DNA from: Liolophura sinensis
Lineage: Eukaryota > Mollusca > Polyplacophora > Chitonida > Chitonidae
Direction: 5' to 3'
Length of the DNA: 64,000 nt
NCBI RefSeq assembly: GCF_032854445.1
Contig: NW_027017957.1
Coordinates: forward strand, 124,001-188,000
Every line of letters starts with the position of its first letter. Within the stretch, counting starts at the first letter, position 1. The translations under genes and the position numbers were made by a program. A model generated the notes under the pieces. It was not told the DNA's origin. It worked only from the letters and a program-made list of their open reading frames with translations, and did no database searches. Positions 963 to 59,910 of this stretch are shown here, piece after piece.

Positions 963-1012
963 TTACTGGCTTTCAGTTTTGTTAACTTCATCATACACTG
1001 GACCATCTGGAG
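963..1012 (-). CDS. Exon 15: last coding exon, VYDEV motif and stop
   Basis: Acceptor CAATTAATTTTCAG, then PDGPVYDEVNKTESQ and TAA at 965-963; phase 1 in. The tyrosine is residue 694, ten residues from the C terminus. This is the fourth intact YxxV/L site. ESQ is not a clear PDZ ligand. The stop codon closes the 703-residue model. Confidence 0.83.
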
Positions 1013-4000
1013 CTGAAAATTAATTGTAATAAAACATTTTCTACGTTCCTATTGTTACTTCCCTTTTCCGCTGGGAGGTAGGCGGCGTTTCACGCACAAC
1101 CTATTGCAATGCACAATAATCTACTCATGACAAATTTGAAATGTTTAATATGAAAGGAACGTTATACTTTGGCTGTTAAAACCTTGGAAAATATCCCCTT
1201 TTTGTGAGATTGAAAAAAAAAACAAAACAAAAACACTAATGAGAAAACATAAAGGATTGCTAGCAGCTATAAAACTGACCTTTTGCAGTTTTGCTGGTCT
1301 TCCTTGCTGTATTTAATTCTGTATAGACACGTGCTGCTTCTTCTGAAATTAAAGGTGATACACTGTAATGTATATCAATCAATATATGGAATTTCACCAT
1401 AGAATTTCTTTGAATACAAGTGCTTATTTGTACCTCGCTTCACTGACCACTAAGCACTGTTGAAGACAAAATCCACGATTGCTTTATAAATAAAAAACAC
1501 CAGTAAATTGTATTTCGGGTATACTGGACATATATGAGAATCGAGGGCAACACTGGAGACGAGAACTTGCTCTGACATATTCAGGAGTCTATAAACCATA
1601 AGAGTGTTGTTCACCAGTTCATTACAAAGTGAAGTAAATCTTGTTGCCCATTAAAGTAGTGGCGTCTGCCGTTTTGAATTACACTATAAGCTATGGCTAT
1701 TTAAGATCACTTGCAGTGCTAGTCAAATGATTTATAATTTTTAATGGCCTCCGTGGCTCTGTCGGTTAGCGCGCTAGCGCATTGTAATGACCCAGGCGCC
1801 TCTCACCAATGCGGTTGCTGTGAGTTCAAGTCCAACTCATGATGGCTTCCTCTCCGGCCGTAAGTGGGAAGGTCTGCCAGCAACCTGCGGATGGTCGTGA
1901 GTTTCCCCCGGGCTTTGCCCGGTTTCCACCCACCATAATGCTGGCCGCCATCGTATAAGCTAAATATTCTTGAGAACGGCGTAAAACACCAATCAAGTAA
2001 ATAAATAAATAAATAAATAAATATAATTTTTATTAAAATAGGGAAAGGACCCAACTCTGCGATACAGTAAGGGAGATTTGCTCCATCTTGTTGAGGACCA
2101 GTAAGCCTCATTAGATATTTGTTACCTACTTCCTGTATCTTCTAAAGTTCTCACCAACCAAAGTAAGAATTTCACCAATTTCTAATGACAACTTTACTTA
2201 CGTATTTTCGGAACGGTAAATTCGATTTGATAACATTCTTTAAAGGTTATGTCAAAATTTATCATAAAAACTGGAGTACCAGACAGGCAATAACATCAAG
2301 GTAAAATTTATAGGACATTGGATTTTGTATTGATGGTTGTAAATCCAAAACATCAGCTAAACAGGTTTATGCGTACACCAACAGGATTACTCATTATCCA
2401 CATCATTCGATTTATTCTCGTTTAAATCTAGCTTAACTGCTTACCTCTATTAATCCAAATGATATATCAGAACCTGTATCTGTCAAATGTTTAGTTACAG
2501 CTCAATTATCCGCGTCGTACCCGGATATCGTCTGTCCTTAGCAAACGTTTTGTCTTGTTTATCGAAGTTATAAAAATGACTCCTCTGGAATACTACCCCG
2601 TAAAGCATTATAGCATTATACGAAATTCATGGTTTCTGATTTGAAACATGGTCTCCGACTGGAAACATGTTTTCCAACTTGAAACACGGTCTTCTACTGG
2701 AAACAGGATATTGCTACATGTCTGGCCTTGTGGCGTTGAGTATACCCTATGTGTTTTCTGACTCTCTTAATCAACGTCACAATTTATTGCTGCAAGAAAC
2801 TCGTAGGACAAGGTTATTTTATCGAAAGCCTTCACTGTTTTTGAACTTTTACAATGAGTACAATTTTCTTGTAAGTGAATACATAGAAAGCATTTAGGAT
2901 CTCTGGCACTTTGCTTTATAAATGTGTCCTATTTAACGATGGGTATGTAAACTGTTGAAGCCAAAATGCTGCTGAGATACATATTTTATTATCTATTTTT
3001 TGGGGGGGGCTTGTGTGAAACGTCATTTTTGGAATTGGTAATGTGATTATTGACCTGGTACATACATACTGGTAAAACGCTGATATAGGGATGTCCATTT
3101 TGACGCATGTGAGTGTCGTTGAACTGACGTGTTGCTGAGATATCAGAGACCGTCTAATATATGTCAGCTTTTTCGTTTATAAACAAATTTCAAGAATAAG
3201 CATACGCTGTTCTAAACGCAGACGGAGAGCTGTAACCTTTTCTAACGGGGTATACTTACCTGAGTTGGGCATGGGATCCACCTTTTCATAGACTCCAATT
3301 TTTCTAATAAAAGATGGGAATGTATTGACGATAAACATTTTGATGAAATATGCATCTTGTTCAATGGAATCTTAAGCATTCAACAACTACAACAATACAC
3401 TACACGAAGTGGATAATTACCACTGAGTGTAAAAGTTACTAAATGTTTCAACGCGAAAGAAAATATTGCTTTAACATGTGAAAGGAAGGTTAACTTTGAG
3501 TCTAGTCATGAACACATATAATACATGAAACCGGTATTTATATTTTTTGTAACAAATTCTTTTTGCAATTAAACTAAGATTCACGAAAATTTTCATTCTT
3601 CGGTTTATTTTGTTCTGTGATTGTTGAAAAATGACCTCTCTTCGGTAACGTAAATTTAATGTCAACACTGAAACAAGGATCGGCTCAATGCAAGCAAACT
3701 AACTTTGGTCGACAGATTTCTGACAAAAGAATTGAGGATCGAAAATTTTGGTCGCAGGGAATATCACAGGCGACCAAAGTCATGAGAGTAAAATATTTTG
3801 ATCAAAGAAAAGAAATAGTCCGCGGAAAAAATATGGTCAGCAAAAAAACAAAGATTTGGTCGAATCCTCGGATATTTTCCTCCTGATTATGGTAAAGTCT
3901 GAAACTGGTAGCATTTGGTGTTCTGCACACCAGAGTGATGAAATATTGCCCATTGTTCACATACAGAAGTCTTGTATACTGCCTGAGCTTTGGCAATAAG

Positions 4001-7000: not shown

Positions 7001-10000
7001 AAGATAAATACAATGGCTAACATCTGGCTCAAATGGAGTTTGAAAGTCAGCTCAATCCACGCATAAATTTCTCATACTTAACGAATCAACTGATTCTTTA
7101 TCATTGGTTTTCATGCAATAACTGCTTCAAAATATTGTCATTTTCCAATACCACAAGGATATAAAAAAATTTCAGATGTACATAGTTGCTTTTCACTTTT
7201 TATTATTATTTGTTGTATCTGTTGTACGATAGCTGACAAAGTGACAAAAACCATACCTTGTGGGTATCTTTCCATCTGGAACAACATTTCAGGACATAAA
7301 AAGTGCGATCTTAGTTATGGCATTTCGACTGGCTTAAGAAAGGCGAAAGGTAACATTGTTTTTAGACAGAACACCAGTCACCTGTTTTTCCTCAATGGGA
7401 ATGCTTTTTATACAATGATAGTGGTGTGTTTTTGTACTGCAGACTTACGGCCAGCGCCCAGGGCTTCGTCCTTCCCATGAAGATATTTCATCCAATAGTT
7501 TGCGACTAAGCTGCAAATCTGAATACAGACATTTGACACGGACTAGGGTAAGATGTAGGATTTCTGACTCTTGTCCTTTGATAAAGTGAAGCTGGCAGGC
7601 CTATGGAATAATGTCTTTTATTTGATTCCCCAAATTTTTCAAAAACTTATTTTATTTGTTTGTTCAAATTCTTTGTTTTGATAATTGCATGACAGGTACT
7701 TTTTATTTAAGGGCGCCTATTATATCCCAGCTTACTGGGGACTAAAGACTACAAAGTCATTACTTGAGTCAACTGTAGTTTGTCAATAGGATGTTTTTCT
7801 TTTAGTTAGTCAGTTACAAAGATCTGTACCAACTTCATTATTATCTTGTTCGGAATGTTTTGACATGCTTGAGGATACAGTGATCAGCTTTGTGCATTAC
7901 CCTAAATCCTATGACCACAAGCATTGATATCCATCTCTTCCGTATCTATAATTAGATGGTATATGTTACTAGCTATGAGACACCATTATTCGAGGTATCA
8001 AATCAACCAGTATAATTTTGGTAATAATGACACTGTGAACAAAGAAAATGCAACCACATTCGCATTGGTTGCTTCGACACTTAAATGTAACCATAATGGT
8101 TATGGCCGTTTTGACCATTCTTATATAATGGTAACTTAGAACCTATTTTGGCGGTCATTTGAATGTAATCATAGTGGTTATGGTGGCTTTGGCCATTCTT
8201 ATATAATGGTAACTTGGAACCTATTCTGGCGGTCATTTGAATGTAATCATAGTGGTTTTGGCCGTTTTGGCCATTCTTATATAATGGTAACTTGGAACCT
8301 ATTCTGGCGGTCATTTAAATGTAACCACAATGGTTATGGTCGTTTTGGCCATTCTTATATAATGGTTACTTGGACCATATTTTGACGGTCATATAAATGT
8401 AACCCTAATTGTTATGGTCGGTTTGACCAATCTTATATAATGTTTACTTGAACCCTGTTCTGGCGACCAAAGGAATTCTGACTCTAAAATATGTGGTCGT
8501 TTAGACATTTTTAAGTACGTACCCAAATTCGTTTGGTCGTGGGCAACCAATTTTTTGGGGGTACAATCCACCAGATCCTTTTAACAGTAAATTGTTAATT
8601 GTTACGACCAATATATAGCACGCAATATGCCAGTTTCAACTGTTCCTCTAAGGATACAGTGTGTAAAACGTAAGTGACGACTGGTCTTGGAGTGTCTTTA
8701 AGCATCTTACTTACTGTTTGTCTGCGGAAAACCCTAAACCTGTGGGGGGAAAAAGAGAAAAAAAAACTTCAATTGTTACTTTTTTAAATTAAATACAAGC
8801 CTGTCCGTCTATAGTGTTGTCAGAGATTGCGGAAACGTAAGTTCCACTGTACTCTCCGATATCAGCTTGTGTATGTAAGTTCAAGTCCAGCTCATGCTGG
8901 CTTCCTCTCCGGCAGTACGTGGGAAGGTCTGTCGGCAACTTGCTGATGGTCGTGGGTTTCCCCCGGGCTCTGCCCGGTTTCCGCCCACCATAATGCTGGC
9001 CGCCGTCGTATAAGTGAAATATTCTTGGGTACGGCGTAAAACACCAATCAAATAAATAAAATAAAGTATGTATGTAAGTATAGATTAAGTAAGGTAAAAT
9101 GGGTAAGCTCGTATGTAAAAGGTTTTATACTGAGACAAAATAAATTAAATTGTGTTTTTCTCTCGAACAAAAATTAGACAGGCCCCAGAACACGAGGTAC
9201 CAATGTTCAGTCAGATAACATAGTGTACCAAACGTTCTTGGTTCACGCCGGGCACCCGTTTTCCTCAACCCACAAATCTGAACGCCATTCTTGAACAACA
9301 GTCAAATATATAAATAAATAAGTACACAAATGTAAATAGTAAATATATCCCAAACCATCGTGTCTTCCGCATAGTGCTCATTTCTCACCTGGAACGTTTT
9401 CGTAATGTCTGGTTGATTGCATACCATTTGATACCTCATCCGGTCCCATCTGCCTGTCAGATAAAATGAGACTGATAATACTAAAATATTAATCTACAGA
9501 ACTCTGGTGTGTTACGGTTATACACTTGTTTATTTAAAGGCGTGAATAACTGAATCGTCTATCATTAATATTAATATTATTATATTTTGACACCTACGTT
9601 GAGAGCTCAGTTATACTTACAATAAGTCGTTATATGTCACACAAATAATTCAACTGATTGTCAAACTTACTCTGTTTCTCCTGAGGAACGGCTACCTGAA
9701 AGAGTACACCCGGAAGCGCTTCATTTCTTGACAGCCAAGATGTGTATAAACAAGGTATATATGCTTACTTAAATAATTTCCACACTTATTTGTTACCGGT
9801 ACTTTTTGGAAGCTTGTTTGTTGGAAACATGAGCGGTACATCACAAAGACTACATCATGGAAAGAGTGACATTTGCATTGATGTTTTTAAAATTTTATCG
9901 AAAAATTTGGCACCGGATTGCAAAACATCAATGCTCATACCGCAATCTCACTGTTGTTCCTACCACAAGCTTTAAGTTACACATATGAAGAATTAATTCG

Positions 10001-11652
10001 ATCCCCCCTCTCCCCAACTCTACCACCACCACTCCAAAGATTCACTAGGAATACAAAAAATTGGGAGTCAGGAAATATACATTACATGGTGAGACGTATA
10101 TGGCTAAAAATAGCTCAGTTAATAAACAAATAAGAGAAGAATAAACAATTGTTTCAAATAAGTTGTACATTTTACTGTGGAATATGAAAAATAATCCAAT
10201 GATTTTACAGGTCAACTGACATCCGTTAGTACTATACGAAACAACAATAAAGCAACAGTAGCAAGAATACAGATAGCAAAGCTATGATGCCGCAAAAAAT
10301 GCATTTTTTTATTTTAAAATAATTTTTGCTTCTCCATGTAGTATTGTTTGTCCATCTGCGGCTTATATGCTCTTTACTATCTGAATTAATAAGATTTTTT
10401 TCAAAGTTCGTTATAACTTTGCTTTCGCCCACTGAAAATGACCACAACTAGAAGATAAACCATTGTCTTTCACATAATGCTCCCTTCTCACCTGGAACGT
10501 TTTCGAAATGTCTGGTTGATTGCACACCATTTGGTACCTCATCCGGTCCCATCTGCCTGTCAGATAAAATGAGACTCTTAATACTAAAATATTAATCTAC
10601 AGAACTCTGGTGTGCTACGATTATACACTTGTTTATTTAAAGGCGTGTATCACTGAATCGTCTAACATTAATATTAATATTATTATATGTTGACACCTAC
10701 GTTGAGAGTTCAGTTATACTTACAATAAGTCGTTATATGTCACACAAATAATTCAACTGATTGTCAAACTTACTCTGTTTCTCCTGAGGAACGGCTACCT
10801 GAAAGAGTACGCACAGAAGCGTTTCATTTCTTCACAGCCAAGATGTGCATTGACAATGTATGTATGTTTACTTGAATAATTTCCACATTTATTTGTTACC
10901 GGTGCTCTTGTTTCTTGGAAACATGAATGGTACATTACAAAGACTATATCATGGAAACAGTGACATTTGCGTTGATGTTTTTAACATTTTATCTCAAGAT
11001 TTAGCACTGGCTTGTAAAACATCAATGCTCGTATCACAATCTCACTGTTGTTCTTACCACAAGTTTTAAGTTATACACAAGAAGGATTAATTTGCCCCCA
11101 CCATCCCAAAGATTCACTAGGAATACAATAAATTGGGAGTTAGGAAATATACATGTATATGGTAAGAAGAATATGATTAAAAATAGATCCGTTAATAAAC
11201 AAAAAAGAGAGTAAACAACGGTTTCAAATAAATTGTACAGTTTACTGTGCGCTAAGAAAAATAATCCAATGATTCAACAGGTCATCTGATATCCGTTAGT
11301 ACTCTACAAAACATCAATAAAGCAACAGTAGTAAGAATACAGATAACAAAGCTGTAATACTGTAAACAATGCAATTTTTATTAAGAGGCATTTTTGCTTC
11401 TCTTTGTACTACCGTTTGCCCATCTACGGCTTATATGCCCCTGGCTATTTAAATAATTAAGGTATTTTTTCCACTTAGGTCATTACCTTGCTTTCGCCTA
11501 CGGAAGATGACCACAGCTAGAAGCACAACTCCCATTAAAACGATAGCTCCTGAGATGCCGCCTGCCAGGGAGCCGGCTAAGGCACGGGTGGCATCAGGCG
11601 GTACAACAGAAACTGTAAAACAAACACGAATTTATATTCTTACAAATCCAGG

Positions 11653-11728
<76 letters not shown>

Positions 11729-14700
11729 TCTAAGGCAAGCTATTTCGTACATGTTTATTACATCTTTATGTTTTTTTAATCTATAATTTGATTTATTGTT
11801 GAGTGTATAATACCTGTTGTACGACATAACGGTTGAGTATATTAGACAATGAGCGGGAAAAACCACTCCACTGAGTAAACGAATAAAAACAAGGGGCATT
11901 ACTCATGCCACTTACGGCGCCCACATTACACGCTTTTCATCACTGTCACCACTAAAAAAGTTTGTGCAGAAATAATAAACAGCGCCATAGTCATCCGGGA
12001 CTCGGTGATAAGGCAAGAAGTGATCGCAGGAAACACAAAATCTCTCTCAACCTGTGTTTGTAATAAAAACTTATAGGCACGCATTCTCTATATTTGATTT
12101 GCTTCCTCTCCGGCCGTAATTGGGAAGGTCTGGCAACCTGCGGATAGTCTTGGGTTACCCCCGGGCTGGCCGCCGTTGTATAAGTGAAATATTCTTGAGT
12201 AGGGCGTAAAATACCAATCAAATCAATAAATGAATCTTTATTTGAAGTATGCACAATACTATTCCAGTTAACATCTGAAACTATTGAATAAATGCTGATC
12301 AAGTAGTTCCGCACATTGATGAGGCTAAACATAAAAATGCCTACGTGCGCTAAAGGTCTAGCTTGTCTCGTGGTGGCAGTGATGTAAAGTGAGCGTGGAG
12401 AGCGAGTATACATGTAATACTCTGCTGGTAGAACACAAACAACACTCAGCTGGCAAAGAAACATTGGCCATACGGTTTTCACAAAATGTGGCTATTAAAA
12501 TAGGTGGACAAAAACGACCTGGAACATGAAACAACGAATGAAGATATAAATCAAGTTTCCAACTTTTGTTATGTGCATCAATTGCTTCAAATATTTGAAG
12601 CTGAAGATGCATTATATGGCTTTTAAACAGCAATTAATAATTGTTGTACAAATCCTTTTCGAAAATTCAAAAAAAGTTTCCAACATTTTGTTTATGACGC
12701 TTTTGAATTTCCATTTCGTATGATTAAATCGATCGTCGACGTAGACAAGTTCAGTATCGGTGCCAGGGATGCTAAGAGGATTTTATCAGATTTAGCACCA
12801 CATTCATAATGAAACAATGTGGGGACATGTATATTTATGTGTTTGATTGGTGTTTGGCGCCATATTCAAGCATACTTCACTTATACGACGGTGACCAGCA
12901 TTATTGGGAAGAAGCCGAGCAGGCCCCGGGAAAACACACAGGCTGCTGGAAGACCTTTTCACGTATAGCTGAAGAGGAAGCCAGCATGAGCTGGACAGCG
13001 ACCGCATAGGTTGGAAGCACGGGCATTACTGCCCAGCGCTGGCGTTCTAAACCCCTCGGCCATGTAGACGCTGAGAAATGTATAAGACAGGCTTATAGCT
13101 TCTGCATAAATGTGTGGAGTGCATTATGTATTTGAAGAAGACATTTTACTTTTTTTCTTTTTTATACTATATATGCATCTTTTATTTTTTCATATAGTAT
13201 GTTTCTAGTAATTAGCTTTATGCCCTTTGTGACCTAACAACTTCGCAAAAGGTGTGAATTTTCCCAGCCAAAAGTAGTTGTACATTTGTCTTGCAATATA
13301 CCTACTTTAGTTTGAGTTTCAGTGCAGATGTATATATAATATTCTTCATACTATTGAAAAACTATGACCTGAGCATGCAAACTTTATCTAAATGCGGTGC
13401 CTGGCAATTTATTTGTATACCATGTATGTTTAGTTATTTGACTGGTGTTTATTGCAGTATTCAGGACTGTTTCCCGTACACAACGGAGGTCTGTGAAGTG
13501 TGTGCACGTGGGTGAAAGAAGTGAGATCAGTCATATAAGCTGAGTAACCTTCAACTTTTACCTTCTCCAGTAAGAAAAATACATTACCCATTAAGTTAAA
13601 AGATATGATTGTCTCAGAAGATCCCACGTCATTTTCAGCAACAAATTTGTATTTCCCGAAATCATCACGTTTAACGTCAGAGATTTCTAGTTCCGCCACG
13701 TGACCTGAAAGCTGGACTTCGGCCTTGTTAAATTGAAACTTGTGGATAGCATCCGTCACGCGACTTCGGTATTTACTCCCGGGTGAGTTAGAGACGGTTA
13801 GTTTTTCAGCTGTACCATTTATAAGTTTGTACCACGTGAGGTTCACATAGGCTGGATAAGACACAAACTTAAACATCAGTTTGTTATTTTCACCGAGCGC
13901 TGCTGCTTGTTGGTTGCTTTGTCTGGGAAACTGTGGTCGGGCTGGGAAAGAAAATGGAGAAGTATAAGGTAAACATCTGTCTTTACCACGCCAGCATACT
14001 TGTAGCTTTGACGGCCGTATCTTACAAGAAATTATCCCAGTTTATTGCGCACAGTTTATTTATTTATTTATTTATTTATTATTAAAGGTCAACAGTAAAA
14101 ATCCAGAAAGAGGCCCAGCACTAGTTAACCAACATTTTAATAATGGAACACATAAATCTATGCATCAAAAGAGACACTTATATAAGTGTCGTCATCTCAA
14201 ATGTATGTTCCGTGTCAATAATCACAAGGGCATTTCCCTTTTAACACAAACCACCAGAGAACCAAGAAAGGTTCTACAGTTGTCTACAGCTAACATAACA
14301 TCTATACAATTAAATAAATAAGACGGACCAAGACAGTAAAGCAAATGTTAATATGGCAAATTAACAGCCACCTCTTAATGTTAATATATCAACAGTTTCT
14401 TCACTACTGCATCGTTGATGTTTATATCGGCACACTTTCTAATTCCTCATACATGAAAGACATAGCAGGTTATCAATCAAACATCATTAACTGTCGTGTC
14501 CAGGCAATTCATGATCACCGATGTATAGGGCGATGTGAACTTTTGTAGATAACATCCACATATATGCGGAGTTCAGCTTTCTATCCGCTTGGAATGGTGT
14601 AATATTTCATCTGCAATTTTATTTCATTCTGTGCAAGAAGTGAAAAAAAGTGAGTCGGCCAGAGGTTAAGCTGCAACGGATAATAGCTCGTGCTTTTTCA

Positions 14701-17700: not shown

Positions 17701-20700
17701 TCGGTTTGCCTATCTTGTCGGCCGTGGAACCCTTGCCGTGGGTACCATGAAAGTCTGCCGGTATTATGAACCGAAAAAACTTACAAAGCACTGAATAATC
17801 TATGCATTACCTACTCTTTTTACAGAAGCATTTGTTTGACTTCGTCTACACCCCTTTACGTGTATATGGCTTAATTTGCACCCTGAAAATCCAATCAGTA
17901 AAACAGTTTTACAACAAATATATCTAAACATACCGTACGAAGCTGCATTTGATCCCTGAAAAACGAGTACAGATAAGCGATTGGGCGATATGATCAACGA
18001 TTTTCGCTGATATACTAACAAGAATTGTACATCCATAGAATGATGGAAGTATCCGTGGAGAATTTGGCAGTTTTGCAGGCCCAGCGCTGGTGAACTACGT
18101 TAATAGTTATTTTTTGTCTTACATTATAGATGAGTTCCTCAAAGAAACAGATTTTTATTTCAGGTATAGTGAAATAAAAAGTGTGTATATATATATATAT
18201 TGTTGATAAGTATTGTTGATACTAGACCTGGCAGAAAAGTTTGTGACGGCCAAGTTTGGCTATTATCACAGGTGACAACAATAAATTACCCTTACAATGC
18301 TAGAGAAACCCGTGATAAAATTCAGAGTAGCAATTAGTGATAACAGCCAGTGATATCCTCAACACCTTACCTCGAACCTTAATTTCCAGTTGTCCCCCCT
18401 GAACGCCTCCAAACCCGTTACTGGCTCCACATTGGTATACACCCTGATCTCTGAAGGTTACATTGCTTAGGGACAGAGATTTCTCATGGCTGTTGCTTGT
18501 CAGTGGTACAGGGCGGCCCCCAATAGTGCGACTCCAGACAGAGTAGGTGTAGTTTTGAGGAACAGCTTCAGCACGACATTCCAGCTGTAGAGGGTTTCCT
18601 TCTGTGACATTTTCTCCTGACACCAGAACCACAGATACATCCGGGGCATCTTGGAAAATACAACAGCAAAATCGTTTCAAATGTCCTGAGCGAGAGATGC
18701 CCGGTTGAAATTGACAATCACAACATGGGTGCAGCACTACTCGGATTTTTGTATTTGACCTAAAATGTCGTGTAAGGGTAAGACATTTGCTTTACGTTCT
18801 GGGATATATGTTGGTCCTTGAAAAGGTCTTTGAAGGATTATTTAGAAGGAGGAATGATATCATGTGGAAAACTTAATAGTTTCAATATGATTTTTTATGA
18901 TATTTACTTGTGTCTGGAAATACCCTTTCTTGGTGCAAAGTGATCGGTCAAGTATAGTATTTGTTTGTTGGTAATTAAGGGAGTTTACTCAAGATGGTTT
19001 TCCTTAATTCGACTGATTTTAGATTGTGTGTAAAAAAACCTTCAGTGTCCGAAACTCACCCATATTCTCACTTACTCGAGCAAAACCCTGACCCAAACGC
19101 ATGATCTAACCGGTGAGAGCTTTAGTTGATACTGACATATTTAATCACACCTGAGTCTTTTATTATTCAAAGTCATATGTAATACAAGTGGCTGTATTAG
19201 TTTTATCAGACACCACGTACCACGTATATGTACCACGCTGTGTGACTTTCTCTTTGAGATTTATTAATTCCCGTTTGACAGTTCACGTTAAAAAATTCAA
19301 GCATTTCAATATCCTTAAAAGATGTTTATTCTTAATCATAGTTTTGTTATCTATGTGGGCATTTTTATATACACTAAAATACCCTGAATGTGGAAATCTC
19401 AGAGTCTTTAATTGTCAATTAAACATAAGCAATGATGAATAGTGAGCGCCAATTGATACGTGGCATCAAAGATCCACAACACGTACTCTGTCAAATATAC
19501 CATTTAGGGATGTAACACAAAACTAACTTTGAAAAACTGGAAAATTCAAAATGTCAAAAAGAGCACTTACAGTACACAGTCACATTGACTGTCCTCTCCA
19601 CACCTCTCCCTACATTATTACTAGCTGTCACGGTGTAGGCTCCAGAGTCAGTCCTGCTGATCTTGTTGAACCTGGCCACAGACGCATATCTGTGATTTGT
19701 CACGCTCACGTCACTCGACTGAGCTCCGCGACTCCAGCTTATCGTGGGCTCAGGATTAGCCCAGGTAGTACAGGATAGCTCAGCTGTGACATTCTCCACG
19801 AAAATGTACGATGATTTACAGCTGGTAAACATGGGCCCGTCTGGAAAAATAAGCAGTCATCAATTAGTGTACTACTGAGAAAAAGACAAGTGAGAAAACA
19901 AGTATGAAGTTATCTACCAGTGTAACTGTGTTATCATTTTGTTTCACTTGGTCAAATTCGCATTAAAATCCGATAAGCGACCTGAAAATGTTAACGTCGA
20001 AGTGTGTTGTCTGTTATGCAGCTAAATTGATGATATAGTCACATAATTCTTCCATGAAAAATGCATACCTGAGACAAAAAGGAAAGTTGTTCAGGGGTAA
20101 CTTCGTCCATTAGATTGTGATTCAGAGATATACGGGTATAATTGAATCTATAAGCCTAGATATGGTATACAGCTATTTGGTGATACGTATTATTGGTCTA
20201 AATTTTGTTTCTGCTGGAAAAGATACATCGCTTGTCGGACAGAATGTTGTTTTTTGGCGACCGAAAGCAAATCAACAATTCTGGTTGTGCGGCATTTAGT
20301 TGCAAAAAATACATGTATTTCTGTCTGCATCAGAAAGGGAGGATGAAGACGGAAATGGATTATTATTGTTCAACAAGGCTTAAAACCTGCATTTAATTCC
20401 ATATGGAAAACACTACAGAAGACAACTGTATAAGTTTGAAGAAATTAGTGAAATAAACCCATGTATGTTCAACTCAATCAAGAGTTACAAAATGATGAAC
20501 AACAAAACTGATTTACTCTCGGGAGTAAACTTATTGTTAAATAAAGATAAATGAAAATATCTGTTCTGTTCGGATGTTTAATCAAAGTAGACGTAAAGCA
20601 GACAATATACACCGTGATGTTAGTTTAGATTTCCGCACTTTACACCAGACATTGTCAGTCTCATAGAAATGCAAACAGGGTCCCTCCTTATGTTGACCGT

Positions 20701-23700: not shown

Positions 23701-26700
23701 ATAACACGCACAAGCCCATGTTACATGGCCCTGTGCTGTGTACGGGTACTACAGCATTGACTAGGCGAGCCAGGCTGTACACAAATATCATATCATGGGG
23801 ACTGGTTCTGTACCACGTAGCCCGGGCAAAGTGCCATTGCCTTCAAATTTTCATATAAATTTATCATGGCGTCGTGTTATCACGGTGGCGTTTGTATTCA
23901 TGCATCAGTATGGCATTCATTGCACCCAAATCCTATTCACATTAAACCATATTAAGAATCCGAGGTAAAACAGTAGCGCTATGTCAGTTTTTAAACTAGA
24001 GATTTCGGAGTGCATTGCAGGATATATTAACCCTGATCCGCAACTATAAATTACTACATCGCCGAATATGGCATAATTAAGATATACATGTTCATCGAGT
24101 GAACACCTGTGCAATGAAATACACATGTGTGGTGATTGTTACCAAACGAATATACTGCAAGTGACGTCAGTTCAACCTGTCTAGGGTGAAACAAAAGTTT
24201 CGAGACGACAGATATTTACCCGTCCGACACCAAAGTTACTTTTCTTCATATCGTTTTATTTAAGCCGAGGATACACACAGCGGATTTTTAGAAATTTACG
24301 AAGCATGTCTGTACGAGCGGAAAAATCCATCCAGTATGTCCCTGGATTTCCCGGTTTTATCGGCCATTGTGTAAGCTGTATTTACAGATCACACGGGAGT
24401 ATCCAATAACTTTTCCAATATGATTGTGAGCATTCTGGTCATAAAGGTAACTACGCAGTCAATCACAGAAATTCTGTTCCAACCACGTGAGCCTGCATGA
24501 TAATTGAAATATCATGGATGCAGGATGGCAGATAAAGCGGTGATAACCTCCAATACAATGGTGATATCACCGATACGCTGGTGATGACGTGACTACATGT
24601 ACATACAAAGATCTATATGGATGCCAGGAGAAGTTACGGGAACGTAATCAAACCAAAGTACATTATGGTTGACCAATAATTTAAAAACTCGTTGTAAGAA
24701 AGGGCAATGCTAGTTATATGAGAGCCCGTTTTGTGGACTGCTCTCCTATTAGTTGTTAGGTAATATAATAACCTTTCAGCGCTGGCTTGGCTAGTTTCCT
24801 TATGTTATGATCTCAATGATTTCCTGTATGATAACATATACTCACATTGTACATTGAGTGTGTAGACTTGTGATCGTACAGGGTGATCGGTCACACTGTT
24901 GGAGGCTTTACAGTACAGCTCAGCTCCGTTCTCCTCGGCACTAGCTGTAAACGTGAATATCCTAGTTGTAGTCTGTACCGAGCTGGAGTCCTTTTTACTG
25001 TCTCCTGGGCCTAGCTCCCGGACATTAGCGGACGTCCTTATGTATGCCCTTATACAGGCCTGTGGTTTACTGGCCGATGACACACAGGTTACGGTGGTGA
25101 GGTTACCGGCTAACACTGCATCTGGAGGGTTCGTCATAGTTACCCGGGTAACCATAACTGCAGAACACACAGAACATTAATTTGAAACCAATGGTTTGAT
25201 GCTTCAATGATCTTGACCTTCCCATGCAGCAAATATAAAAAATGGCCAGTGACACTCATGTTGCCTCATTTTACATAATTGTACTCGCAACAAAAACTCA
25301 GAAACAATACGTGTGTACAGGTAAACTCTACATTAAAGAAGACTTCCGCTCCACTGTATAACTTGTTGATTTATTTGATTGTTGTTTTACGCTGTACTCA
25401 AGAATATTTCACTTATACGAAAGCGGCCAGCATTTTGGTGGGAGGAAACCGGACAGAGCCCGAGGAAACCCACCACCATCCGCAAGTGGCTGTAGACCTT
25501 GTCACGTTCGGCCGGAGAGGAAGCCAGCATGAACTGGACTTAAACTCACACCGACCGCATCGGTGAGAGGCTCCTGAGTCATTGCACCGAGCTGGGGTGC
25601 TAAGCACCTCGACCACGGACGCCACTCCATTGTTTGAAGTCCTAGTATCCGTGTGCAAAACCCTGGTTGTATGTAAAAGAAAAGACCGCATGGGTGAATG
25701 ATTTATAATAGATTGTACAGTAAAGCAGGGTCGTAGTCCAATATCCTACGCCCATCGTGGCCGGGCCAAACATGGGCTGTCCGGCCGTCATACGCGCAAC
25801 CTGATCCTATCCCTAGTGCCATCCTGACCCGATTGTATGCCCATGGTGGGCCCATCATGGTACCATCATGGGCGTACCATCCTGCCGTCTTGATCAGAAT
25901 TCACCAGTGTTCATGCAGTGTTAGTTACGAACTTATTTACGGCAAATGAGTCCTATCTTTATATATTAACGAGTATTTCTTCCTGCTGGACAATTTTCCA
26001 CAAGTCCTGATCGGATTTTACGCTCATCATGAAGCCATGCTTGACACAGGGTATTCGACTGGAAGGCGGCTGTAGTGTACATGAGATGTATATATCTACA
26101 TGGTACTAACACAATTATCCCACCTAAAACGCAAACGTTACTGTCTTGTTCAACTAACATAACAGATGACAACCCACTCTAAGTATACCGCGATTTTAAC
26201 TTATTTATAAATAATCTTCTTAATGATACGTCAGTGCTTTATTCGTCAAGTAAACTGATTTGGGAACCTACAATTAACGTATTGATAGTTCAGTGCGGGA
26301 TATGAAAAGATTGTTTACATTTCAGTTACGGTTTGGACTCAGTGTCTAAAGCAAGAGGAGTAGAAATGTTTCAATCTTTTTTTCTTTTACATTCCGTCTA
26401 TTGGGATGAGGGACAAGTTCTTGCAACTTACAAGCCCTTCTCCCTACAGGGAATATTCATAAATTTTATACACGTCTGGATACTAAGTATTTACAGGCGT
26501 AAACAAAATAATATTAACGGCAAAAGTAACAAACGTAAAAAGTGAGTTGTGTTATATACACAAAAACATACGGAACCTTGGTCATGAAAGAAGAAAAAAT
26601 CTGGCACCAGAAAGCGAAAAATCATTTTGATCTAACATTGCAAGTTATATTCGGGTCGCTAAAGAATAAATCATTTTCTTTTTTTCTATATATCTACTCA

Positions 26701-35954: not shown

Positions 35955-36790
35955 TGTGCATTATTTTCCTAGAATGTGAGGTTTGTCATCAATTTTAACA
36001 ATTCCTAAATGGCAAAATTTATCCATGACAGGAAATATTTCTTTGGCTGAAGTTGATTTTATAATTTCTTTGAATTCTTGAATAAGCATCAACGAACACC
36101 AGAAAACAGTCACCACTTGGAAGTGTTCCACAAAAGTCGATGGTGTCTTAGATAACTCATACATTAACAAATGTTCAGGTTTCTTTGGATCCGGTAACAC
36201 GTCACCACCTGTGAAAACGTACCCATAAAATTTGAGAGTTGTTTTGCTGAACTCACGCTTGTTTTTGTTGAGCGTTAAGTTCTTTTCTCGAAGGGGTTGG
36301 TCATCATGTGACTGGTCATTTTTTTCATACACAGTGATATCGTCGCTCATGTTCTCAGTGCCTGGATTGTCATAGTGTTTGCTGCAGATGATGCACCAAA
36401 GTTAAAGCGTTCGTATCGTCTAAGTTATGGGTAGAGTAGGTTGTGATGTATCTCGAATCGAGATGTAGTTCAAATAGGTTATATCCTGCAATGAGAACAC
36501 TTTTGCGCCATATAAATCACTCATGATGTCATCCACTGTTGGTGTGATGTGACGTTCACACTTGATAGCTTTGCACTGTGCACGTATGCCGATACATTGG
36601 CGCATTTCATCCGGATTCTTTGGCTTACGCGTTTCAAGGATACGTGACATCCACGGCGTTGGGCCGCCCACTGGCTCAATGATACCCAGTTCTTCTAGCC
36701 TGACTATTTCCTTTTCTACTTTTCGTCTTAGGTGAAAAGCAATCAGGAAAAGGAATGTATTGTTTTACCTGATAGTCCTACATTTTTCCA
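35955..36790 (-). mobile_element. Ty3/Gypsy pol remnant (RT plus integrase, internally deleted)
   Basis: Minus strand: VEKEIVRLEELGIIEPVGGP, then TPWMSRILETRKP and KAIKCERHITPTVDDIMSDL, a textbook Ty3/Gypsy RT start. TLNKNKREFSKTTLKFYGYV follows from the RT end. A different frame then reads TIDFCGTLPSGDCFLVFVDA and YSR, the integrase core. The catalytic YxDD part of the RT, the RNase H and most of the integrase are missing, and there are frameshifts and stops. It is dead. Confidence 0.85.
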
Positions 36791-50445: not shown

Positions 50446-50718
50446 GGCCTCCGTGGCTCAGTCGGTTAGCGCGCTAGAGCAGCGTAATGACCCAGAAGCC
50501 TCTCACCAATGCGGTCGCTGTGAGTTCAAGACCAGCTCATGCTGCCTTCCTCTCCGGCCGTACGTGGGAAGGTTTGCCAGCAACCTGCGGATGGTCGTGG
50601 GTTTCCCCCGGGCTCTGCCCGGTTTCCACCCACCATAATGCTGACCGCCGTCGTATAAGTGAAATATTCTTGAGTACGGCGTAAAACACCAATCAAAAAA
50701 AAAAAAAAAAAAAAAAAA
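50446..50718 (+). mobile_element. SINE, full length, with 14-bp target-site duplication
   Basis: Head GGCCTCCGTGGCTCAGTCGG, then TTAGCGCGCTAG, intact body and a pure A tail of about 23 bp. AATGAGTGGCCAGG lies directly before (50,432-50,445) and again after the tail (50,720-50,733), with one extra C between. The intact duplication and homogeneous tail mark a young insertion; it is the best reference copy in the window. Confidence 0.97.
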
Positions 50719-59200: not shown

Positions 59201-59411
59201 CAACAGTTTCCATTGAAGCAGAAAAGACGCAAGATATTTTCTGGGCAACTGAGTTAAATCAGTCTTCTATCAGTCTTCAAATGGTGTACTAAGCTACAAT
59301 ATCAGTTGTCGATAACAAAATATGTATCTCTGTTGTACTTTGATTGTGAGTGTTTATATATCCAACGTGGCGATGTAATTCAACACGATGAATACATTTC
59401 CCCTACCCCCT

Positions 59412-59800
59412 GCTTACGCGGAGCTATACAGAATCATGAGGCAGAGCTACAGAGATTCTGAACCCTCGGCTTAGGCGGAATTATACACAATAATGAGGCT
59501 GAGCTCCAGAGATTCTGAACCCTCGGCTTACGCGGAGTTATACACAATCATGAGGCAGAGCTACAGAGATTCTGAACCCTCGGCTTAGGCAGAATTATAC
59601 ACAATCATGAGGCAGAGCTACAGAGATTCTGAACCCTCGCCTTACGCGGAGCTATACACAATCATGAGGCAGAGCTACAGAGATTCTGAACCCTCGGCTT
59701 ACGCGGAGTTATACAGAATCATGAGGCAGAGCTACAGAGATTCTGAACCCTCGGCTTACGCGGAGTTATACACAGTCATAAAGCACAGCTCCAGCGACTC
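59412..59800 (+). repeat. Minisatellite, 57-bp unit, about 6.8 copies, coding-like
   Basis: GAACCCTCG starts at 59,460, 59,517, 59,574, 59,631, 59,688 and 59,745, always 57 bp apart. On the plus strand each unit encodes 19 residues: MRQSYRDSEPSAYAELYTI. The last four units are open (59,607-59,846), while two earlier ones carry TAG in place of TAC (GCTTAG versus GCTTAC). No start context or splice site proves that it is translated. Confidence 0.92.
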
Positions 59801-59910
59801 TCAACGCTCTGTCCACATTTACTTGACTTTAAGAGAAATGTACTGATTATAAAATTTTAAAAAAATTGGATTGAAGGTGTTTGATGGAATAATCTTGACA
59901 CACTAGTTCT

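Follow-up and report, generated by a model that had tools for sequence, protein, structure and literature searches.

A chiton immunoglobulin-type receptor family with a putative docking exon that appears to have been multiplied through frame-neutral exon pairs

The gene considered here is a minus-strand receptor gene on the assembly GCF_032854445.1 of the chiton Liolophura sinensis, within a stretch of 64,000 nt (the window; contig NW_027017957.1, positions 124,001 to 188,000), in which a cassette of two short cytoplasmic-tail exons is present twice. All coordinates are window positions. Several described systems are similar to it. CD22 (Siglec-2) is a single-pass immunoglobulin (Ig) receptor with several tail tyrosines, one of them in a YENV context; its phosphorylated pYENV site binds Grb2, and changes of Y to F or of N to D there are said to disrupt binding (PMC5302901). 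The oyster receptor CgIgIT2 is likewise molluscan, has five Ig domains, one transmembrane (TM) segment and a tail with tyrosine motifs, and is reported to be an immune receptor (PMC11999971). In arthropod Dscam, also an Ig receptor, tail exons with SH2 motifs or immunoreceptor tyrosine-based activation motifs (ITAMs) vary by splicing, and Daphnia tails can include or omit an ITAM or an immunoreceptor tyrosine-based inhibition motif (ITIM) (PMC6851185). Neighbouring homologous coding exons with adjacent intron, as in the chiton, have been described for tandem exon duplications and mutually exclusive exons (PMC9013439, PMC5740500), and human sets of exons that exclude each other are known (PMC5740500). 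Tandem exon duplication and the variation of tail motifs by splicing are, then, already known phenomena.

The chiton locus differs from each of these systems. CD22 has one YENV site beside three ITIMs, whereas the chiton gene has a duplicated exon, no strict ITIM and a site for which binding is only putative; no orthology is claimed. The cited account of CgIgIT2 mentions no duplication of an exon cassette (PMC11999971), and the two receptors were compared by description. Exon choice in Dscam has been shown by transcripts (PMC6851185). In Daphnia, the duplicated exons of Dscam arrays 4 and 6 are reported to show no gene conversion (PMC3236188), whereas conversion is clear in the chiton cassette. 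Finally, the chiton unit is made up of two exons that shift the frame singly and preserve it only as a pair, and for this unit mutual exclusion is a candidate arrangement. The account put forward here, with moderate confidence when all of its parts are taken jointly, is that of an Ig-receptor family multiplying an exon for a phosphotyrosine-x-asparagine (pYxN) motif, with an old duplication, gene conversion, a private change of Y to F, and both cassettes spliced in.

The cassette pairs a microexon of 25 nt with a tyrosine exon of 65 nt and lies on the minus strand at 10798-10492 and again at 9695-9389. The relevant features are as follows.

11487..11612, minus strand: transmembrane exon (SVVPPD...VVIFRRRKQ), phase 1 at both ends
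10457..11523, minus strand: duplicated unit, copy 1, starting inside the TM exon (blastn self-comparison; alignment)
10774..10798, minus strand: microexon 1, 25 nt (sequence)
10492..10556, minus strand: tyrosine exon 1, 65 nt, HFENV (TTC) (sequence; alignment)
9352..10454, minus strand: duplicated unit, copy 2 (blastn self-comparison; alignment)
10418..10454, minus strand: relic of the 3′ end of the TM exon, opening copy 2, donor destroyed (alignment; donor score)
9671..9695, minus strand: microexon 2, 25 nt, identical to microexon 1 (sequence)
9389..9453, minus strand: tyrosine exon 2, 65 nt, HYENV (TAC) (sequence; alignment)
8715..8739, minus strand: next tail exon (e8), 25 nt, GLGFSADK, phase 1 to 2

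The repeated unit is approximately 1.1 kb long, and its copies are 84.7% identical across 1105 columns, which is far above chance (blastn self-comparison). The 5′ breakpoint lies within the TM exon, so that copy 2 opens with a relic of that exon, and the repeat ends just beyond the donor of the tyrosine exon. The donor score of the relic has dropped from 7.9 to 0.5; the splice-donor matrix values, and the U12 pattern used below, are general consensus values. It is apparent that this is a tandem exon duplication, with adjacent head-to-tail copies, flanking intron, and splice sites and frame kept. A preliminary description of the window had reported a frame-neutral duplication of two exons totalling 90 nt, and all of the coordinates that it gave are correct. 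Tails with no cassette, with copy 1, with copy 2 or with both are in frame to one common TAA, a single microexon or a single tyrosine exon alone disrupts the frame, and microexon 1 spliced directly to tyrosine exon 2 also keeps it. Its further observations were confirmed as well: the microexons are identical at 25/25 bases, both tyrosine exons retain their frame and splice sites, and HFENV in copy 1 is opposed to HYENV in copy 2. The tyrosine exons differ at 3/65 bases, each of which changes an amino acid (P/S, V/M, F/Y).

The chiton genome was first published as Liolophura japonica (PMC11068029), and the species name was corrected to L. sinensis (PMC12441733). An assembly artefact or a haplotype duplication could be suspected, as the window sits on a 621-kb scaffold outside the large pseudomolecules and the HiFi depth is given as 14× (PMC11068029). 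The copies are, however, 15.6% apart in the outer intron, as against a published heterozygosity of 1.24% (PMC11068029), the breakpoint falls inside an exon, and two more genes, at the loci L009 and L010, carry the same duplication. An artefact of either kind, the first of which was considered in the preliminary description, is therefore extremely improbable.

A genome-wide search for the tyrosine-exon pattern, allowing ≤3 mismatches, gave 27 matches and none in a reversed control. Searches of the assembly with the cassette and with the TM exon gave 32 and 16 matches, respectively; all of these match counts are lower bounds. Sixteen regions were read in addition to the window. The 27 tyrosine exons are distributed across 16 loci, with two or three in ten of them and one in each of six (L018, L019, L020, L021, L022 and L023). 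The order microexon, tyrosine exon, microexon, tyrosine exon, e8 was observed in the window gene, L009, L010 and L016, as well as in L014, there with a gap of approximately 5 kb. The order microexon, tyrosine exon, e8, tyrosine exon, e8 was observed in L011, L012, L013 and L015, and L017 has both types of pair (microexon, tyrosine exon, microexon, tyrosine exon, e8, tyrosine exon, e8). Two distinct pairs appear doubled in the family, namely microexon plus tyrosine exon and tyrosine exon plus e8, and each is 90 nt long (87 nt with a 62-nt tyrosine exon) and frame-neutral. Judging from the exon order and the blast pieces, the second pair would have arisen by one tandem duplication. With all exons included, the reading frame from the microexon through the final tail exon identified is free of stops in the 14 loci whose exon borders are valid (10 with several copies, 4 with one); L021, in which the translated border is not a valid acceptor, was left out of this count. 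The multiplication of one docking exon in a family via two overlapping frame-neutral pairings seems less usual, and open-literature searches, for exon duplication with tail tyrosines and for chiton Ig receptor families, returned no such report among the matches listed. It was also considered that L011, L012, L013 and L015 are forced to exclude one tyrosine exon for want of a second microexon, and this was rejected, since the intervening 25-nt exon restores the frame.

Within the motif, tyrosine is kept in 25 of the 27 exons, the exceptions being window copy 1 (F) and L020 (N); asparagine is at +2 in 26 (S in L022), glutamate is present in all, and the +3 position is occupied throughout by V, L or I. 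The phenylalanine of window copy 1 is thus derived and private. In the other multi-copy loci every copy keeps its tyrosine (9/9), which fits the addition of docking sites better than an on/off choice. Within the window gene, tyrosine with asparagine at +2 and a hydrophobic residue at +3 is found in copy 2 only, and HYENV is the sole motif in the tail with asparagine at +2. Three more tyrosine motifs are in the constant tail, present whichever cassette is used.

3260..3303, minus strand: tail exon with GVYEKV (reading frame)
1280..1342, minus strand: tail exon with RVYTEL (reading frame)
963..1012, minus strand: final exon of the proximal tail module, with PVYDEV and the stop codon (reading frame)

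The strict ITIM consensus, taken as [I/V/L/S]xYxx[V/L] (PMC6851185), is absent from the window gene, since RHYENV, GVYEKV, RVYTEL and PVYDEV all lack the −2 residue. By its resemblance to the CD22 site, HYENV is a putative pYxN site of the Grb2 type, and the loss of tyrosine in one copy would take away the docking site from that copy only.

These observations suggest the following mechanism. A tail exon for a single pYxN motif (H-Y-E-N-V/L/I) would have been multiplied through duplication of frame-neutral exon pairs, and transcripts would normally retain both cassettes, so that the tail has two HxENV segments in tandem. Members of the family would thus differ in their number of Grb2/Drk-type docking sites. 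The window receptor would have gone back to a single working site beside a copy that is phospho-dead, the latter presumably tolerated because the tail retains the twin site as well as three further tyrosine motifs.

The history of the duplication is recorded in its introns. Between the two window copies, divergence is 107/686 in the outer intron, 9/217 in the inner intron, 3/65 in the tyrosine exon and 0/25 in the microexon, and the difference between the inner and outer introns is significant (Fisher 2.2e-6). Both exons together (3/90) do not differ in this respect from the inner intron (Fisher 1.0). The exons therefore diverge no more slowly than the inner intron, and their identity is no sign of protein constraint. 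The outer introns cluster by position: that of window copy 1 is 88.6 and 90.2% identical to those of copy 1 in L009 and L010, and that of window copy 2 is 91.1 and 91.7% identical to those of their copy 2, as compared with 83.8% between copies 1 and 2. The core behaves differently, as that of window copy 2 is 96.2% identical to window copy 1 and 96.5 and 95.5% identical to copy 1 of L009 and L010, but just 86.6 and 88.5% identical to their copy 2. Among the six sequences, 38 sites in the outer intron and none in the core back the positional split, while 11 outer and 22 core sites set apart copy 2 of the other genes (Fisher 1.6e-10, in a test that treats sites as independent). In an approximately-unbiased test of the six sequences (unrooted), the outer intron rejects two alternatives, and the core keeps all three. 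At the diagnostic sites of copy 2, all 22 from 9688 to 9462 are of the copy-1 type and all 11 from 9381 on are of the copy-2 type; those upstream of 9709 are mostly, not wholly, of the copy-2 type. The minimum tract is accordingly placed as follows.

9462..9688, minus strand: minimum gene-conversion tract in copy 2 (22/22 copy-1-type sites; edges within 9745-9688 and 9462-9381)

Taken together, these comparisons establish, at the level of sequence, that the cassette duplication is old, being common to at least three genes (the window gene, L009 and L010) and older than their split. They establish likewise that gene conversion overwrote microexon 2 and the inner intron with copy-1-type sequence, the donor being window copy 1 or copy 1 of a relative. 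Tyrosine exon 2 is probably also within the tract, although the exon itself holds no diagnostic site. The identity of the microexons is thus attributed to conversion of copy 2. Two other explanations were discarded. A recent duplication behind the identical microexons is ruled out by the grouping of the outer introns and by the diagnostic sites, and purifying selection behind the 95.9% identity of the inner introns is ruled out by the copy-to-copy core identity in L009 and L010, which is just 85.6 and 88.5%, respectively.

A number of points weigh against the account given above, and they concern the family, the docking site, the splicing of the cassettes and the constraint on the tyrosine exons. 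In L021 the tyrosine exon has a 1-nt insertion at its edge, such that the true acceptor gives 66 nt and a broken frame, and a second AG gives 62 nt and an intact one. L020 is without a recognised microexon, and L024 is decayed. Several loci are on small unplaced contigs and some are perhaps alleles (the outer introns of L021 and L022 are 99.6% identical), so that the 16 loci are not a gene count. As to the docking site, resemblance to CD22 is the sole basis for its assignment. Co-inclusion of the cassettes is itself an expectation from equivalent splice sites and an open frame. Microexons are, moreover, often regulated.

It had been proposed in the preliminary description that alternative splicing chooses between the cassettes, giving isoforms with or without the pYxN site. 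Such a regulated choice is considered unlikely here. Each cassette is in frame singly, the resulting tails being alike except for P/S, V/M and F/Y, and the join of microexon 1 to tyrosine exon 2 also works. In shrimp Dscam, some tail exons form mutually exclusive pairs and others are optional (PMC6851185). The features that usually enforce exclusion were, however, absent when sought at the cassettes: co-inclusion does not shift the frame, the intervening intron (796 nt) is not too short, and the donors are ordinary GT, with no U12-type donor and hence no U2/U12 mismatch. Steric, U2/U12 and frame-shift exclusion are all absent as a result. Donors and acceptors of the two cassettes are near-identical in strength according to the consensus matrix. 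Choice would also be pointless for the pYxN site in the nine other multi-copy loci, as their copies all have tyrosine.

RNA stems were assessed by an ungapped stem score against shuffled sequence. In the window gene, L009 and L010, pairing of the downstream intron with the intron that precedes each microexon gave scores reached by 116, 100, 135, 71, 39 and 47 of 200 shuffles, and in four tests of stems with the upstream intron the score was reached by 38-53 of 60; all ten tests are thus within the range of the shuffles. When the downstream intron of the window gene was paired with its two inner introns, just 16 and 18 of 200 shuffles reached the score with mismatches strongly penalised, and 71 and 26 of 200 did so under mild penalties. 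The corresponding values were 84 and 69 of 200 in L009, where the stem is missing, and 19 (copy 1) and 83 of 200 in L010. The stem in the window gene is not significant, but leaves a little room for structure-based choice, which counts against co-inclusion. The proposed choice of cassette accordingly has no positive support and, given equivalent splice sites, in-frame co-inclusion and non-significant stems, is unsupported rather than refuted. Five tissue RNA-seq samples exist for the chiton genome, from digestive gland, foot, gill, gonad and heart (PMC11068029).

Two sequence features near the cassettes were also noted. A segment of the intron that follows cassette 2 (9311-9335) shows 75-76% complementarity to 9512-9536 and 10616-10639, which are in the inner introns of the two cassettes; these pairs rank second and third among the 25 listed of 51 inverted-repeat pairs, a listing without shuffle control. 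The arrangement has the layout of a selector stem, and is suggestive at most, as it is not significant relative to shuffles. In addition, about ten bases 5′ of the microexon acceptors (10799-10823 and 9696-9720), copy 1 has TGTGC and copy 2 has CGGGT. UGC is a microexon enhancer motif, so that inclusion of the two microexons could differ.

The remaining point concerns constraint. It may be that cassette 1 is a drifting spare, skipped or seldom used, that is gathering changes, although we give this a low probability. Over 314 bases, nine private changes (including S to P and Y to F) were counted in window copy 1 and three in copy 2, a difference that is not significant (binomial p 0.146). The ratio of nonsynonymous to synonymous differences (pN/pS) is 0.85 over the 24 tyrosine exons of 65 nt. 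This indicates weak overall constraint on the exon, so that spare copies may be drifting, and it too counts against the favoured account. The phenylalanine of copy 1 need not exceed drift. Opposed to the idea of a spare is that cassette 1 keeps its length, its frame and intact splice sites, and that 26/27 tyrosine exons are 65 or 62 nt long, L021 alone deviating by a length not divisible by three.

The other tail exons provide a comparison. Tyrosine is kept in 14/15 distinct copies read of the YEKV exon, 21/21 of the YxEL/YxEV exon and 14/15 of the YDEV exon (the last from 17 matches); with all tail tyrosine motifs pooled, it is kept in 74/78. In the distal module of L027 the tyrosine has been lost (VCEKV), which is a further loss within a duplicated module and would agree with drift of spare copies. 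The window gene accounts for two of the four losses, each of them a change to F in a duplicated copy with a tyrosine-bearing twin, but these events are too few for a pattern to be claimed.

The second of those two losses is in a second C-terminal tail module, made up of the YEKV, YAEL and terminal exons and found 3′ of the proximal stop, just past the left end of the window.

L025 (C18:116500-126400), 5114-5071, 3156-3094 and 2828-2779, minus strand: distal tail module (motif matches)

The last motif is VYDEV in the proximal module and VFDEV in the distal one. A doubled C-terminal module is likewise situated downstream of L009, L010 and L012. The distal module may be part of the window-gene transcript, in which case the two modules would be exclusive alternative 3′ ends, because the proximal module has a stop codon. 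It is conceivable, but most doubtful, that pairs of tail modules, one live and one phospho-dead, are evolving in the window gene, so that splicing and 3′-end choice could dial the number of working docking sites.

The remainder of the receptor gene comprises five Ig-type exons upstream of the TM exon and the short-exon tail, with phases that are compatible throughout.

31392..31736, minus strand: probable Ig exon (compatible phases and Cys/Trp pattern by eye; no Pfam Ig match)
24846..25157, minus strand: Ig exon, C2-set-like (Pfam)
19571..19840, minus strand: Ig exon (Pfam)
18371..18649, minus strand: Ig exon (Pfam)
13588..13941, minus strand: membrane-proximal Ig exon (Pfam)

Four of the five Ig exons reach the gathering score of an Ig-family Pfam entry. 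The gene matches 148 distinct solved-structure sequences at E ≤ 0.001, and the matches listed are generic Ig adhesion molecules and receptors. With its Ig domains, single TM segment and cytoplasmic tail, it has the composition of an immunoglobulin superfamily receptor. No signal-peptide exon was found by a simple scan, so that the 5′ end of the gene model is provisional.

Various repeats were observed in the window. A 78-nt tandem array of 4.9 copies (8078-8467) is inside the intron between the exons at 8739-8715 and 3303-3260. An element resembling a short interspersed nuclear element (TTGATTGGTGTTTTACGCC...) is present in at least ten places (blastn self-comparison), for example at 8874-9065, 12834-12996, 1819-2009 and 50519-50710, and also sits in the intron after cassette 2. 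A 57-nt tandem repeat of 7.1 copies (59405-59809, plus strand) has a frame of 19-residue units (...PSAYAELYTIMRQSYRDSE...) with several tyrosines, in which SAYAEL matches the ITIM pattern; as two units contain a stop, coding is only putative. At 35961-36764 (minus strand), open frames look by eye like a retrotransposon polymerase fragment, for which Pfam gave no match.

The chiton family bears on receptor evolution in several ways. Identical duplicated exons may mislead, since their identity here stems from gene conversion and not from a young duplication. Receptor loci that carry a docking exon once, twice or three times, apparently through two different frame-neutral pairings, form a natural series within a single genome, and the natural change of Y to F in the window gene is the counterpart of the usual laboratory mutation. 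If both cassettes are indeed included together, exon duplication would offer a way of adjusting how many docking sites an invertebrate immune-type receptor carries.

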